A stretch of 33,006 nt of DNA from Beijerinckiaceae bacterium (GTDB lineage Bacteria; Pseudomonadota; Alphaproteobacteria; Rhizobiales; Beijerinckiaceae). A model generated the notes under the pieces. It searched no databases. It was not told the origin of the DNA and was given only the letters and a program-made list of their open reading frames with translations. This document shows, one piece after another, positions 19,476-24,949 of the stretch; position 1 is the stretch's first letter; each line of letters starts with the position of its first letter. The position numbers and the translations under genes were made by a program. The stretch is taken from positions 1-33,006 of the forward strand of contig JAIEQX010000285.1 of the NCBI GenBank assembly GCA_019747375.1. Reading direction: 5' to 3'.

Positions 19476-19517
19476 TTGACAGGCCGGCGCGACGCGAAAT
19501 ATGTAACGTTATAACAT
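19476..19517 (+). promoter_or_regulatory. Candidate sigma70-type promoter with overlapping Zur-box-like operator (site 1)
   Basis: TTGACA (19476-19481), 17-18 nt spacer, ATATGT/TATGTA -10; palindrome-like ATGTAACGTTATAACAT at 19501-19517 overlaps the -10, upstream of the TonB-dependent receptor. Confidence 0.7.
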
Positions 19518-19537: not shown

Positions 19538-21664
19538 ATGGTCCCCCGTCGCAAGCGTCTGTTCGGCAGCACGTTTCTCCTGTCCCTGCCGGTCGCGTCC
19601 CTCCCGGCGCTTGCCCAGACGACGGAACTTCCCGAGATCGTCGTGACCTCGCCGTCGCCGATCTTCACCCGCGCGCCCCAAAATGGCGCGGGCGTTCCGG
19701 GCGCGCCGCCCGCCGGCGCACTTCAGGTGGCGACCGACACGTTCGCCCCCGTCACGATCGTGTCGCGCGACGAGATCGAGCGCGACGCGCCGCGCACGCT
19801 CGGGGACGCCCTCGCGGACAAGCCCGGCATCGCGGGTTCGTCGTTCACGGCAGGCGCCAACCGGCCGATCATCCGCGGTCTCGACAATGTCCGCGTGCGC
19901 ATCCAGGAAAACGGCGTCGGCTCGCAGGATGTCTCGGAGCTCGGCGAAGATCACGGCGTGCCGATCGATCCGCTGGCCGCCGACCAGATCGAGGTGATCC
20001 GCGGCCCGGCGACATTGCGCTATGGCTCGCAGGCCATCGGGGGCGTGGTCAGCGCCACCAACAATCGCATTCCGACCTTCATTCCGGTGAACGGCTATCT
20101 GGGGCGGATCACCGGCAGCCTCGGGTCGGTCGACAGCGCGCGCGACGCCGCCGCCTCGATCGACGCGGGCGCCGGGCAGGTCGCCGTTCACGCGGATGGC
20201 TTCGTGCGCCGCGCCGGCGATTACGACACGCCGCGGGGCCGGCAGGCCAACACGGCCGTCGCCGCGCAGGGAGGCTCGATTGGCGCCTCCTATCTTTTCG
20301 ATCGTGGGTTCTTCGGCGTGTCGCTGACGCATTACGAAGCCATCTATGGCATTCCCGGCGCCGAGGCGGCGGCCAGCCGCACGCGCATCGACATGGCGCA
20401 GAACAAGGCGCAGGCGCGCGGCGAATACAGGCCGGAAAGCGGGCCCTTCGAGGCCGTCCGCCTCTGGCTCGGCGCGACCGACTACAAGCACGACGAACGC
20501 AGCGTCGAGAACGGCGTCGACGGCGTCGGCGCCACTTTCAAGAACCGCGAGATCGAAGGCCGTCTCGAAGCGCAGCATGCGCCGCTGGCGACCGGCTTCG
20601 GGACGTTGCGCGGCGCGGTGGGCGTCCAGTTTGGCGCTCGCAATCTCAGCACGGCCGGGGAGGCCGGCGGGCTGATCGCCCCGGCCCGCACCCGCACCGC
20701 CGCCACCTATCTGTTCGAGGAGCTCGAGCTTTCCCCGACCTTGCGTTTTCAGGCCGCCGGCCGCATCGAACATGCGGCTGTGTCGGGAACCGCGACGGAT
20801 TTTCCGGCGGACTTCCTGCCCGGCCCCGTGGCGCCGGTCGAGAGCGCGTCGCGCCGCGCCTTCACGCCGGGCAGCGTCAGTTTCGGCGTGCTGAAGACGC
20901 TTCCCATGCAGGTCGTCGCCAGCCTCAATGCGCAATATGTCGAGCGCGCGCCTTCCGCCCCCGAACTGTTCTCGCGCGGACCCCACGACGCCACCGCGAC
21001 CTTCGAAATCGGAGATCCGAATCTCAGGAAGGAAATCGCCCGCACGGTGGAATTCGCGCTCCGCCGAAAGGAGGGGCCGCTGCGCTTCGACGCGTCGCTC
21101 TACGCCACGCGCTACACCGGCTTCATCTACAAGCGGCTCACGGGCGTCCTGTGCGGCGACGACTTTTCCACCTGCGGAGCCGATCCCGAATTGCAGCAGA
21201 TCGTCTATTCGCAGCAAAATGCGAAATTCCACGGTCTCGACCTTGCGGTTCAGTACGACGCTTTCGCGCTGGGCGACGGCATGTTCGGCGTCGACGGGCG
21301 TTATGATTTCGTCCGCGCCCGCTTCGACGACGGAACCAACGTTCCGCGCATTCCGCCGCATCGCCTCGGCGCCGGAGTCTTCTGGCGCAATCAGGCGTGG
21401 TTCGCCCGCCTGGGTCTCCTGCATGCTTTCGCGCATGACAAGACCGCCCCGCTCGAAACACGCACGCCGGGCTACAATCTGCTGAAGGCGGAGCTGAGCT
21501 ACACGCACAAGCTCGCCAAAGGCGCGGGCGCGCAATCCGTCACCATGAGCCTCGTGGGCGACAACCTGCTCAACGCCGAGGTGCGCCACTCGACCTCGTT
21601 CAAGAAGGACGAAGTGCTGATGCCCGGCCGCACCGTCCGGGCCGCCATGACGGTGAGGTTCTGA
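19538..21664 (+). CDS. TonB-dependent outer-membrane receptor, ZnuD-like (predicted zinc uptake)
   Basis: Signal peptide MVPRRKRLFGSTFLLSLPVASLPALAQT; TonB box-like LPEIVVT; plug DALADKPGIAGSSFTAGANRPIIRGLDNVRVRIQENGVGSQDVSELGEDHGVPIDPLAADQIEVIRGPATLRYGSQAIGGVV; C-terminal ...VRAAMTVRF. Alternative GTG start at 19523. Confidence 0.92.
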   Translation: MVPRRKRLFGSTFLLSLPVASLPALAQTTELPEIVVTSPSPIFTRAPQNGAGVPGAPPAGALQVATDTFAPVTIVSRDEIERDAPRTLGDALADKPGIAGSSFTAGANRPIIRGLDNVRVRIQENGVGSQDVSELGEDHGVPIDPLAADQIEVIRGPATLRYGSQAIGGVVSATNNRIPTFIPVNGYLGRITGSLGSVDSARDAAASIDAGAGQVAVHADGFVRRAGDYDTPRGRQANTAVAAQGGSIGASYLFDRGFFGVSLTHYEAIYGIPGAEAAASRTRIDMAQNKAQARGEYRPESGPFEAVRLWLGATDYKHDERSVENGVDGVGATFKNREIEGRLEAQHAPLATGFGTLRGAVGVQFGARNLSTAGEAGGLIAPARTRTAATYLFEELELSPTLRFQAAGRIEHAAVSGTATDFPADFLPGPVAPVESASRRAFTPGSVSFGVLKTLPMQVVASLNAQYVERAPSAPELFSRGPHDATATFEIGDPNLRKEIARTVEFALRRKEGPLRFDASLYATRYTGFIYKRLTGVLCGDDFSTCGADPELQQIVYSQQNAKFHGLDLAVQYDAFALGDGMFGVDGRYDFVRARFDDGTNVPRIPPHRLGAGVFWRNQAWFARLGLLHAFAHDKTAPLETRTPGYNLLKAELSYTHKLAKGAGAQSVTMSLVGDNLLNAEVRHSTSFKKDEVLMPGRTVRAAMTVRF

Positions 21665-21689: not shown

Positions 21690-21720
21690 TTGGCAAGCCG
21701 GGTTCGTAACTGTATAACAT
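21690..21720 (+). promoter_or_regulatory. Candidate promoter with overlapping Zur-box-like operator (site 2)
   Basis: TTGGCA (21690-21695) - 17 nt - TATAAC (21713-21718); operator-like TCGTAACTGTATAACAT at 21704-21720 matches site 1 at 13 of 17 positions. Confidence 0.65.
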
Positions 21721-21754: not shown

Positions 21755-21949
21755 GTGCCGACAGCGCTCGATCATTCCGGCCACCATCACGGCCCAGGCC
21801 ATGAGCATGCCCACGCCCATGCTCCGCACGCCCGGCCTGCGGTCCGGCTGCGGCCGTCCTGGATGCGCCATTCGCTGGCGCGACGGCTGATGATCGTCGC
21901 CGGCCTCCTGGTTCCGCTCTGGCTCGCCGTCCTGTGGGCGCTCGGATGA
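21755..21949 (+). CDS. His-rich small single-TM protein, first gene of zinc ABC operon
   Basis: GTG start: MPTALDHSGHHHGPGHEHAHAHAPHARPAVRLRPSWMRHSLARRLMIVAGLLVPLWLAVLWALG. ATGA overlap with the next gene (ATPase ATG at 21946). Confidence 0.72.
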   Translation: MPTALDHSGHHHGPGHEHAHAHAPHARPAVRLRPSWMRHSLARRLMIVAGLLVPLWLAVLWALG

Positions 21950-22770
21950 CCGGCTCCGCGCACCATCGCGTCCACAGGTCAGGGGCCTCGATCCATTTCG
22001 AGGATCTGACGCTGGGCTACGACCGCCATCCGGCGGTCCATCATCTCAGCGGCTCGATCGAGGCCGGGAGCCTGCTCGCCATCGTGGGTCCCAACGGCGC
22101 TGGCAAGTCGACCCTGCTCAAGGGCATCGTCGGCGCCCTGACGCCGCTGCACGGCAGCGTCTCGATCCGGGATGGCGCCTCGCCGGTGGAGACGCGCGCG
22201 CGTCTGGCCTATCTGCCGCAGGTCAGCGCCATCGATCATACCTTTCCGATCTGCGTCTTCGATCTGGTGGCGACCGGCCTCTGGCGCCGGTCCGGGCTCT
22301 TCGGCGGCGTCGGCCGCAAGGATTGCGATGCGGTGGAGCAGGCGCTGGCGGCCGTCGGCCTCACCGGCTTCGAGCGCCGCGAAATCGGCAAGCTGTCGGG
22401 CGGGCAATTGCAGCGCGCGCTCTTCGCCCGCCTGCTGCTGCAGGACGCCGACATCATTTTGCTCGACGAACCGCTGACGGCGATCGACAGCAAGACCGCG
22501 GCCGACCTGCTTGATCTCGTGCGGCGCTGGCACAGCGAGCACCGCACCGTCGTGGCGGTGCTGCACGATATGGCGCTGGTGCGCGAAATCTTTCCGCAGA
22601 CGCTCATGATGGCGCGCGAACTCGTCGCCTATGGCCGCACGTCCGACGTGCTGACGCCCGAAAACCTGCTGGCCGCGCGCCGCATGATCGAGGCTTTCGA
22701 CGAATCCGCGCATGTCTGCGCGGTGGATGACGGCGCGCGGCCGCAGGCGGCCGACAGGAAGGCGTCATGA
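21946..22770 (+). CDS. znuC: Zinc/metal ABC transporter ATP-binding protein, ZnuC-like
   Basis: Walker A GPNGAGKST, LPQVSAIDHTFPICVFDLVATG, signature LSGGQLQRALFARLLLQDADIILLDEPLTAID. Family is metal ABC; zinc specificity inferred from the Zur-like boxes and gene context. Confidence 0.9.
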   Translation: MTGSAHHRVHRSGASIHFEDLTLGYDRHPAVHHLSGSIEAGSLLAIVGPNGAGKSTLLKGIVGALTPLHGSVSIRDGASPVETRARLAYLPQVSAIDHTFPICVFDLVATGLWRRSGLFGGVGRKDCDAVEQALAAVGLTGFERREIGKLSGGQLQRALFARLLLQDADIILLDEPLTAIDSKTAADLLDLVRRWHSEHRTVVAVLHDMALVREIFPQTLMMARELVAYGRTSDVLTPENLLAARRMIEAFDESAHVCAVDDGARPQAADRKAS

Positions 22771-23639
22771 CGGTCTATGACGCCCTGGTGGCGCCCTTCG
22801 TCGAATTCGAATTCATGCGCCGCGCGCTCGTCGGCTCGATCGCGCTGGCGCTCGGCGCCGGTCCTGTCGGCGTGTTCCTGATGCTGCGCCGCATGAGCCT
22901 GTTCGGCGACGCCATGGCGCACGCCATCCTGCCCGGGGCGGCGCTCGGCTATCTGGTGGGCGGACTGTCCCTCACCGCCATGACGGCCGGCGGCCTCGTG
23001 GCGGGCTTCATCGTGGTCATGCTGGCGGGCCTGGTGGCGCGCAACACGTCGGTGAAGGAAGACGCCTCGCTGGCGGCCTTCTATCTCGTGTCGCTGGCGC
23101 TCGGCGTCACCATCGTGTCGTTGAAGGGCTCGAATATCGATCTCCTGCATGTGCTGTTCGGCTCCGTGCTGGCGCTCGACGACGCAGCCCTGGTCCTGCT
23201 GGCCTCGATTTCCTCCCTCACGCTCGTGGTGCTGGCGCTGATCTACCGGCCGCTGGTGCTCGAATGCGTGGATCCGAGCTTCCTGCAATCCGTCAGCCGT
23301 TCGGGCGGGCCGGTCCATCTCGTCTTTCTGGCGCTGGTGGTGATGAACCTCGTGGGCGGGTTCAACGCGCTCGGCACGCTGCTGGCCGTCGGCATCATGA
23401 TGCTGCCCGCAGTGGCGTCGCGCTTCTGGGCGAATGAACTCACCGGCATGATCTGCGCCGCGACCCTGATCGGCATCTTGTCGAGCGTCGCCGGGCTGAT
23501 CGCCTCCTATCATCTCGGCCTGCCGTCCGGTCCCACCATCATTCTGGCGGCCGGCTTCGCCTATATGGCCTCGCTCGCCTTCGGGCCGAACGGCGGCCTC
23601 GTCCTGCGCCTCATCCCCCGTCGTCACCTCGAAGCCTGA
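22767..23639 (+). CDS. znuB: Zinc/metal ABC transporter permease, ZnuB-like
   Basis: EFEFMRRALVGSIALALGAGPVGVFLMLRRMSLFGDAMAHAILPGAALGYLVGG, LVGGFNALGTLLAVGIMMLPAVASRFW: ABC-3 family. ATGA overlap with the upstream ATPase gene. Confidence 0.93.
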   Translation: MTVYDALVAPFVEFEFMRRALVGSIALALGAGPVGVFLMLRRMSLFGDAMAHAILPGAALGYLVGGLSLTAMTAGGLVAGFIVVMLAGLVARNTSVKEDASLAAFYLVSLALGVTIVSLKGSNIDLLHVLFGSVLALDDAALVLLASISSLTLVVLALIYRPLVLECVDPSFLQSVSRSGGPVHLVFLALVVMNLVGGFNALGTLLAVGIMMLPAVASRFWANELTGMICAATLIGILSSVAGLIASYHLGLPSGPTIILAAGFAYMASLAFGPNGGLVLRLIPRRHLEA

Positions 23640-23668
23640 AGGCTGCCGCCCTCATGAAAGGTTCGATC

Positions 23669-24589
23669 ATGCTTCATCGTCGCAACGTTATAACAAAACT
23701 CGTCGTCCTGTCGCTCATGGCGGCCCTTCCGACACTCGCGCAGGCCGAGCCGCGCCTGCGCGTCGTCGCCACCCTGTCGATCGTCGGCGACATGGTCGCG
23801 CAGGTCGGCGGCGAGGATGTCGAGGTCTCCACCCTGGTGGGTCCGGAAGGCGACGCCCATGTCTTCCAGCCGTCCCCCGCCGACGCCCGCAAGATCGCCG
23901 ATGCGAAGCTCGTTTTCGTCAACGGCCTCGGGCTCGAGGGCTGGATGGCGCGCCTGGTCAAGGCGTCGGGCGGCAAGGCGCCGTCCATCACTGTGTCGAA
24001 GGGCGTCAAGGCGATCCGCGAGAAGGAGCCGGCCGGCAAGCATGGCGGGCACGATCACGGCGCGCTCGACCCGCATGCCTGGCAGGACGTCGGCAACGCA
24101 AAGATCTACGTGGCCAACATCCGCGACGCGCTCGTGCAGGCCGATCCGGAAGGCCGTGCGCGCTACGAGCGAAACGCCGGCGCCTATCTGGAGAAGCTCG
24201 ACGCCCTCGACGCCGAAGTGCGCGACACGCTGAAAAAGATTCCGGCCGCCAACCGCCGCATCATCACCACGCATGACGCGTTCGGCTATTACAGCCGGGC
24301 CTATGGCATGACCTTCATCGCCCCGCAGGGCGTTTCCACCGAGGCCGAGGCCTCGTCGCGCGACGTCGCCCGCATCATCCGGCAGATCAAGGCCGAGAAG
24401 GTCCCGGCGGTGTTTCTCGAAAACATCTCGGACGCCCGCCTGATCACCCAGATCGCCCGCGAAACGCAGACCAGGATCGGCGAGAAGGTCTATTCCGACT
24501 CTCTTTCGGCCGCCGGCGGACCGGCCGCCACCTATATCGACATGATCCGCCACAACACGCGCGCCTTCGCGACGGCGCTCGGCGGCTGA
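23669..24589 (+). CDS. znuA: Zinc/metal ABC transporter substrate-binding protein, ZnuA-like
   Basis: Signal peptide MLHRRNVITKLVVLSLMAALPTLAQA; VVATLSIVGDMVAQVGGEDVEVSTLVGPEGDAHVFQPSPAD; His-rich KHGGHDHGALDPHAWQD; ITTHDAFGYYSRAYGM. Alternative start at 23654. Confidence 0.93.
   Translation: MLHRRNVITKLVVLSLMAALPTLAQAEPRLRVVATLSIVGDMVAQVGGEDVEVSTLVGPEGDAHVFQPSPADARKIADAKLVFVNGLGLEGWMARLVKASGGKAPSITVSKGVKAIREKEPAGKHGGHDHGALDPHAWQDVGNAKIYVANIRDALVQADPEGRARYERNAGAYLEKLDALDAEVRDTLKKIPAANRRIITTHDAFGYYSRAYGMTFIAPQGVSTEAEASSRDVARIIRQIKAEKVPAVFLENISDARLITQIARETQTRIGEKVYSDSLSAAGGPAATYIDMIRHNTRAFATALGG
23680..23696 (+). promoter_or_regulatory. Intragenic Zur-box-like sequence within znuA codons 4-10 (site 3)
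   Basis: TCGCAACGTTATAACAA shares the 12-nt core AACGTTATAACA exactly with site 1 and matches it at 13 of 17 positions overall. Confidence 0.55.
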
Positions 24590-24949
24590 TCAGCGCCGGC
24601 GGGCAGGTCTCTGGGCAGGTCTCTGGGCAGCTCTCTGGCCAGGTCGCCGGGCGGAAGAGGCCGCGGGCGGCGGCTCCGGGGTCCTGTCGATGACCAGTTC
24701 GAACATGTCGGGGGAGAAGCACGGCTCCTCCTCGCCCACGTGATCGTGCTGGTACGTCTGGTTCTGCAACTCCAGGAAGCGCAGCCCCTCGCCATGCGCG
24801 GGCGTCTCCACCACCTCCCGGACCGTGTAGACCCGGCCCTCGACGGGCAGGCTCAGCTCGCTGAGGAAATACGGAAGATCGACGTCAAGTCGTTGAATCG
24901 TCTGGAGGCAACGCACCTTGTCGCCTTTCAGGAACCGGATCCGAGCCAT
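24590..24949 (-). CDS. Conserved-looking hypothetical protein with low-complexity Arg/Gln/Ala C-terminal tail
   Basis: MARIRFLKGDKVRCLQTIQRLDVDLPYFLSELSLPVEGRVYTVREVVETPAHGEGLRFLELQNQTYQHDHVGEEEPCFSPDMFELVIDRTPEPPP...PGQRAAQRPAQRPARRR. Confidence 0.65.
   Translation of the reverse strand: MARIRFLKGDKVRCLQTIQRLDVDLPYFLSELSLPVEGRVYTVREVVETPAHGEGLRFLELQNQTYQHDHVGEEEPCFSPDMFELVIDRTPEPPPAASSARRPGQRAAQRPAQRPARRR
24601..24648. repeat. Four tandem 12-nt repeats in coding sequence
   Basis: GGGCAGGTCTCT / GGGCAGGTCTCT / GGGCAGCTCTCT / GGCCAGGTCGCC; in frame with the C-terminal tail of the - strand CDS. Confidence 0.85.

Follow-up and report, generated by a model that had tools for sequence, protein, structure and literature searches.

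A 15-bp Zur box was identified within codons 5-10 of the znuA-like gene of a zinc importer operon, and we consider it rather probable that this box is a functional second Zur operator, maintained by selection and acting as a roadblock within the binding-protein gene. This reading is based on the match of the box to the Zur motif, its conservation among relatives, its codon composition and the absence of a promoter co-located with it. The analyzed window is the whole stretch of DNA, 33,006 nt long, and belongs to a 3.45-Mb genome bin of 389 contigs with 88% completeness (G000, here the own genome), for which genome-wide counts were obtained by pattern searches.

Organization of the zinc importer locus

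The locus contains, in this order, genes for a ZnuD-like TonB receptor and a 64-aa His-rich protein, followed by znuC, znuB and znuA (Table 1). The last transporter gene, znuA, lies in a tight same-strand cluster with a promoter before znuC, and the gene spacing suggests that the cluster is co-transcribed. The best profile match of the znuA product is AztC (NF040870; 322.3 bits, under the equivalog cut-off of 350), whereas an E. coli-type ZnuA identity was rejected (NF007091; 79.3 bits vs the equivalog cut-off of 268). Since the proteins resemble the AztABC profiles just below their cut-offs, zniCBA/troCBA/aztABC type would be the more exact name; we keep znu for continuity. The znuA start was assigned to position 23669 because an SD-like AAAGG is located at 23657-23661, just 5' of it, because this position agrees with the alignment of the orthologs, and because initiation at the following Met would leave no usable signal peptide. 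With this start, the 12-mer described below falls in codons 6-9 and the 15-bp box in codons 5-10. Directly 3' of znuA, at 24605-24640, there are short tandem repeats of ~12 bp (ggtctctgggca).

ORFs resembling the 64-aa His-rich protein were found in 63 of 95 related loci. They share a common design, a His-rich head and a tail like SLLRxSxxQRLxxAxxLxxLLWxxVxWAL, and the protein of the window has no match above cut-off in Pfam and NCBIfam. It is possibly an undescribed zinc-handling partner of the importer.

Table 1. Features of the zinc importer locus in the window.
Feature	Positions	Strand	Description
Probable -35 of receptor promoter	19476..19481	+	TTGACA
Receptor Zur box	19503..19517	+	GTAACGTTATAACAT; before the TonB-dependent receptor gene
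TonB-dependent receptor, ZnuD-like	19538..21664	+	289 bits, below the strict ZnuD cut-off of 950
-35 element of operon promoter	21690..21695	+	TTGGCA; 17 bp before TATAAC of the operon promoter box
Operon promoter Zur box	21706..21720	+	GTAACTGTATAACAT; TATAAC at 21713-21718 serves as -10
64-aa His-rich protein	21755..21949	+	C-terminal hydrophobic segment; between operon promoter and znuC
znuC-like ATPase	21946..22770	+	AztA, 217.9 bits, cut-off 220
znuB-like permease, ABC-3	22767..23639	+	AztB, 268.6 bits, cut-off 280
znuA-like substrate-binding protein gene (AztC/ZniA/TroA type, Pfam ZnuA)	23669..24589	+	306 aa; signal peptide MLHRRNVITKLVVLSLMAALPTLAQA
Internal Zur box	23682..23696	+	GCAACGTTATAACAA; znuA codons 5-10, CGC AAC GTT ATA ACA AAA

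Motif and uniqueness of the internal box

An earlier note on this DNA had reported a 12-mer, AACGTTATAACA, that occurs twice in the locus, and a string search of the window placed it exactly at 19505-19516 and 23684-23695, the latter copy forming znuA codons 6-9 (AAC GTT ATA ACA); the expectation from shuffled sequences is 0.12 matches with at most two mismatches. No third copy was detected by pattern search in the 3.45 Mb of the own genome, even with one mismatch. The 16-mer GYAACGTTATAACAWA has two exact matches in this genome; the box at 21706 follows at two mismatches, and all the rest differ by three or more.

The 12-mer forms the core of the Zur box of alphaproteobacteria, which is 15 bp long. 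Zur boxes were defined by RNA-seq, MEME and EMSA in Paracoccus (GTAACGTAATAACAT, GTAATATAATAACAT, GTAATGTAATAACAT, GTAACGATATAACAT, GTTACGATATAACAT; PMC5387054), and the motif has been described as a 15-bp 7-1-7 palindrome in Sinorhizobium (PMC7029138) and as GTTA-N5-TAAC in Caulobacter and other proteobacteria (PMC4176598). The internal box agrees with the 15-bp motif GTWAYnnnATAACAT, is identical to GTAACGTTATAACAT at 13 of 15 positions and, in keeping with the association of such boxes with zinc-uptake genes, sits in a zinc importer operon. It is the lowest-scoring of the three boxes of the window (18.2 vs 28.9 and 25.0). When a matrix derived from the five EMSA-tested Paracoccus boxes alone was applied to all 15-mers of the window, these three boxes took ranks 1-3 (receptor, 27.5; operon promoter, 19.6; znuA, 17.8), consistent with the predicted Zur-type site of the earlier note.

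The zur gene was not found in the own bin, though the window has three Zur boxes. Given the 88% completeness of the bin, the gene was probably lost in assembly or binning, and its absence is a gap in the argument for this genome in particular. Among the genomes that carry the internal box (hereafter carriers), Zur is present in G036, G035 and G007 by NCBIfam, PDB and sequence evidence. A FUR protein at C377 of the own genome was rejected as Zur, scoring 98.8 bits as the iron regulator Fur vs 28 as Zur; the Fur-like protein of this genome adjoins a second metal importer.

Conservation and taxonomic distribution of the internal box

The first comparative set consisted of the loci of 60 relatives (L038-L097) and the window. 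The box was found at one and the same offset, +13 nt from the znuA start, in G000, G039, G036, G007, G041, G035, G031 and G001, and also in G004 once its znuA start was corrected; a scan of GTDB contigs added the carriers L157 and L185, the latter a MAG labelled Alsobacter soli. Within the genus, 9 of 51 are carriers, and since most relatives are without the box, it is not essential. Protein identity to the znuA product of the window is 56-62% for most carriers and 79% for G039, and the remainder of the signal peptide, outside the box residues, barely aligns among them.

We then searched 397 genomes of the family and 398 of the order (~790 in all, as the two draws partly overlap) with a gene-blind 27-nt exact pattern, ATG-N9-YGN-WAY-KTT-ATA-RCA. 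Sixteen matches open frames of ~290-320 codons, and each of the 16 is a znuA ortholog located behind znuB. These 16 carrier species represent five genus codes (g1, g60, g63, g69, g159) and two family codes (f1, f35). The non-znuA matches comprise six that stop after 4-9 codons and one that opens an unrelated frame of 150 codons, the only other long ORF with the box; the reversed-pattern control gave one match among the family genomes. Loss of the nucleotide sequence in orthologs, named by the earlier note as an outcome that would speak against it, is the opposite of what was found: the box is kept at codons 5-9 in at least 16 species. A broad pattern with two mismatches gave no signal over its reversed control, so short degenerate patterns are uninformative genome-wide.

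A census of boxes scoring at least 17 in 132 loci (1.29 Mb) yielded 124 boxes vs a single one in the same loci after block shuffling. Of these, 67 lie in the region preceding znuC and 23 in the immediate leader of znuA. A further 11 occupy znuA codons 4-9, the rest of znuA being free of boxes, and znuB contains one (in G079). The remaining 22 include boxes at receptor promoters, at promoters of stand-alone znuA genes, which are located slightly farther upstream, and at the znuC-znuB junction of G045. Hence, nearly all boxes either precede zinc-uptake genes or occupy znuA codons 4-9. In four carriers (G007, G041, G001, G031) the internal box outscores the znuC promoter box.

Other placements of Zur boxes were observed in operons of this type. 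In G059 and the Bosea lineage (10 loci), a Zur box is found in the znuB-znuA gap instead (the gap-box loci, mostly Bosea, are L131, L147, L155, L160, L161, L172, L173, L175, L179 and L189); thus, znuA repeatedly has a Zur input beyond that of the operon promoter, and this takes more than one form. In G045 (L065), a Zur box with its own promoter, TTGCCA-15-TATAAT, lies directly before znuB, ~898 nt before the znuA start, and forms another internal Zur-controlled point. In G079 (L083), a strong Zur box (GTTATCTTATAACAT) is located within the 3' end of znuB, 145 nt before the znuA start, and represents a second kind of coding-embedded Zur box.

When 98 loci were placed in a tree of ZnuB+ZnuA, the 11 carriers were scattered over about six positions, so that at least six changes are required. 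A single old origin of the internal box followed by several losses is likelier, as the codon position is identical.

Promoter context and proposed mode of action

Most boxes preceding znuC contain a TATAAC or TATAAT with a TTG-type -35 element at a distance of 16-18 bp upstream (scores mostly 9-13), and this spacing identifies the hexamer as the promoter -10; in the window, the operon promoter reads TTGGCA-17-TATAAC. At the internal boxes, the matching position lacks such a -35 (it reads ATCATG in the window). The best sigma-70-like score in the 150 nt before the znuA start is within background in 10 of 11 carriers (3.2 in the window; null median 4.6, 95% 10.6), with the reservation that the sigma-70 consensus only partly describes the promoters of this group; L185, at 11.0, is above the 95% value. 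Both the -35 geometry and the upstream scores therefore agree with the earlier note, which saw no good -35 for an internal promoter. An internal promoter with its -10 in the box was rejected by this geometry and by the position of the start codon, since the transcript would then begin behind it. An antisense promoter on the box was likewise rejected, having no consistent -35.

Zur boxes usually overlap a promoter or precede the start codon, and the internal box does neither; its placement is that of roadblock operators, downstream of a promoter within transcribed DNA and without promoter overlap. Such a promoterless operator, at the beginning of the operon's last transporter gene, fits a roadblock, the mode of action preferred in the earlier note. 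Its proposal of a second Zur input is partly supported: the selected box within the operon and the lack of a visible promoter stand, and the input itself is a prediction.

From the sequence we infer that Zur would bind the internal box, block elongation and control znuA more tightly than znuBC. When zinc is plentiful, Zn-Zur would occupy the box, ~14-28 nt behind the znuA start codon, and stop RNA polymerase that enters znuA either from the already Zur-repressed znuC promoter or by leaky upstream transcription. Repression would then be tighter for the binding protein than for the preceding permease genes, and the signal-peptide residues R-N-V-I-T would be largely dictated by the operator. High zinc would in this way probably turn znuA off a second time, from within the operon. 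Roadblocks are most effective at low polymerase flux, because read-through by several polymerases needs strong promoters (PMC4132739), and low flux is expected here as Zur also represses the znuC promoter. The proposed roadblock is the simplest mechanism that fits. The broader proposal, that a Fur-family repressor serves as a conserved elongation roadblock, that zinc thereby sets the ZnuA:ZnuBC ratio, and that the operator dictates five signal-peptide residues in two families, is put forward tentatively, with slightly less than even confidence.

It is possible, if rather unlikely, that the box instead represses an internal promoter at the end of znuB or in the znuB-znuA gap, the binding-protein gene being a unit under Zur control with a promoter of its own; this promoter, which would give the binding protein its own supply, would be blocked by Zur bound immediately behind the start site. 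In general, more binding protein than permease is commonly needed. The gap boxes of the Bosea lineage and G059 and the Zur-boxed promoter before znuB in G045 point in the same direction, as does the gap of at least 23 nt in the carriers, many non-carriers having overlapping genes, although gap length is suggestive only. The background-level promoter scores of 10 of 11 carriers, including the window, and the misplaced transcript start of a -10 at the box TATAAC argue against it. As the sigma-70 consensus fits only in part, the explanation keeps some weight, and a weak or non-sigma-70 internal promoter may exist.

Codon-level evidence for selection on the DNA

The codons of the box are rare in six CDSs of the window: ATA accounts for 1 of 108 Ile codons, ACA for 7 of 143 Thr, GTT for 12 of 214 Val and AAA for 13 of 99 Lys codons, so that ATA, ACA and AAA are indeed as unusual as had been supposed at the outset. 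In pooled counts, ATA makes up 4.8% of Ile codons and 4-9% near gene starts. The box Ile is ATA in all 16 carriers, at a position where the search pattern itself specifies ATA; in the 11 aligned carriers, Ile-8 is ATA in 11 of 11 and Thr-9 is ACA in 10 of 10. Eleven of the other twelve conserved Ile columns are mostly ATC, column 315 near the C-terminus being mostly ATA, and none of the other four conserved Thr columns is mostly ACA.

In a codon-redraw test, the protein was kept and the codons were redrawn by each genome's own usage. The observed box score was reached in 0-0.4% of draws with genome usage and, with N-terminal usage and the Paracoccus-only matrix, in 0.005-0.5% of draws for each of the 16 species. 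A start-codon ramp or AT-rich N-terminal codons were rejected as an explanation, the N-terminal ATA share of 4-9% being far too low. Among the 132 loci, the strict peptide [RC][NY][VF]I[TA] is confined to the 11 carriers, whose amino acid differences in it (R/C, N/Y, V/F, T/A) each arise by a change of one base and leave the TTATA core intact. Protein and codon usage together cannot explain the codons of the box, which is kept at the same place in 16 species; selection at the DNA level, as the earlier note suggested, is strongly supported.

These data also bear on whether the site has a function. We regard it as improbable that Zur binds the internal site without a transcriptional effect, as a tolerated site, or is stored there. 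The PhoB sites within E. coli genes are for the most part inert (PMC10294691), and the intragenic Zur boxes of B. subtilis had no zur-dependent effect (PMC4324032); however, inert sites such as those of PhoB are generally unconserved, and the internal box is kept at the same codons, rare ones, in 16 species. Even less credit is due to a relic, the box of a former stand-alone znuA promoter overtaken by coding sequence: znuA does stand alone in several relatives, preceded by a box at 31-88 nt from its start, yet a relic would decay, whereas the internal box outscores the operon promoter box in four species and its place within the codons is fixed. Chance or protein constraint, in which a Tat-like or general signal-peptide motif RRNVIT resembles a Zur box with the help of AT-rich codons near gene starts, is already refuted in substance: RR-containing n-regions are common in this family, but non-carriers with RRHVIA, RRHLIA or RRYLIA encode Ile by ATC or ATT and have no box, and redraw probabilities are ~10^-2 to 10^-5 per species even with N-terminal usage.

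Comparison with known systems

The rarity of conservation is one reason why intragenic transcription-factor sites are usually regarded as noise. The internal box is an intragenic site with evidence of codon-level selection in 16 species, in a simple system of one repressor, one metal and one operon, and control of elongation by the Fur family is thus directly testable with synonymous mutants. If true, the roadblock would be a way to set the stoichiometry of binding protein and transporter from one operon.

The aztABC, zniCBA and troCBA importers of P. denitrificans, R. leguminosarum and A. tumefaciens have in common with the window an AztC-like binding protein and a Zur box before the first gene, and the C-B-A gene order of the window is that of zniCBA. 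Unlike the window, no internal box in the binding-protein gene is mentioned in the available portion of that literature. The Zur boxes of Paracoccus denitrificans, Sinorhizobium fredii, Rhizobium leguminosarum and Caulobacter crescentus share with the internal box the 15-bp palindrome (e.g., GTAACGTAATAACAT and GTAACGATATAACAT) and a zinc ABC importer as target type; the known sites overlap the promoter or precede the start codon, whereas the internal box is embedded in codons 5-10 and is not accompanied by a promoter. Searches of the open-licence literature returned no description of a Zur box conserved in frame within the gene of a binding protein.

Many Zur sites within coding regions are known in Streptomyces (PMC5472717), and ChIP detected 35 intragenic Zur sites in B. 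subtilis, where the boxes lowered expression in cis 4- to 9-fold and deletion of zur made no difference (PMC4324032). As in the window, these boxes are in coding sequence and a roadblock was proposed; however, they belong to another Zur lineage with another box, lie >200 bp inside genes that mostly have no relation to zinc uptake, and showed no Zur-dependent effect (PMC4324032), whereas the internal znuA box lies in the first codons of a core gene of the Zur regulon and is kept across genera. Intragenic Zur boxes as such are therefore already known in Bacillus, and what is new here is an unusually well conserved variant. Established roadblock operators (CodY and CcpA in B. subtilis, purB/PurR in E. 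coli and the LacI model system, PMC4132739) likewise have a site inside or early in a gene without promoter overlap; they belong to other repressor families, and the roadblock at the internal znuA box is proposed from its sequence.
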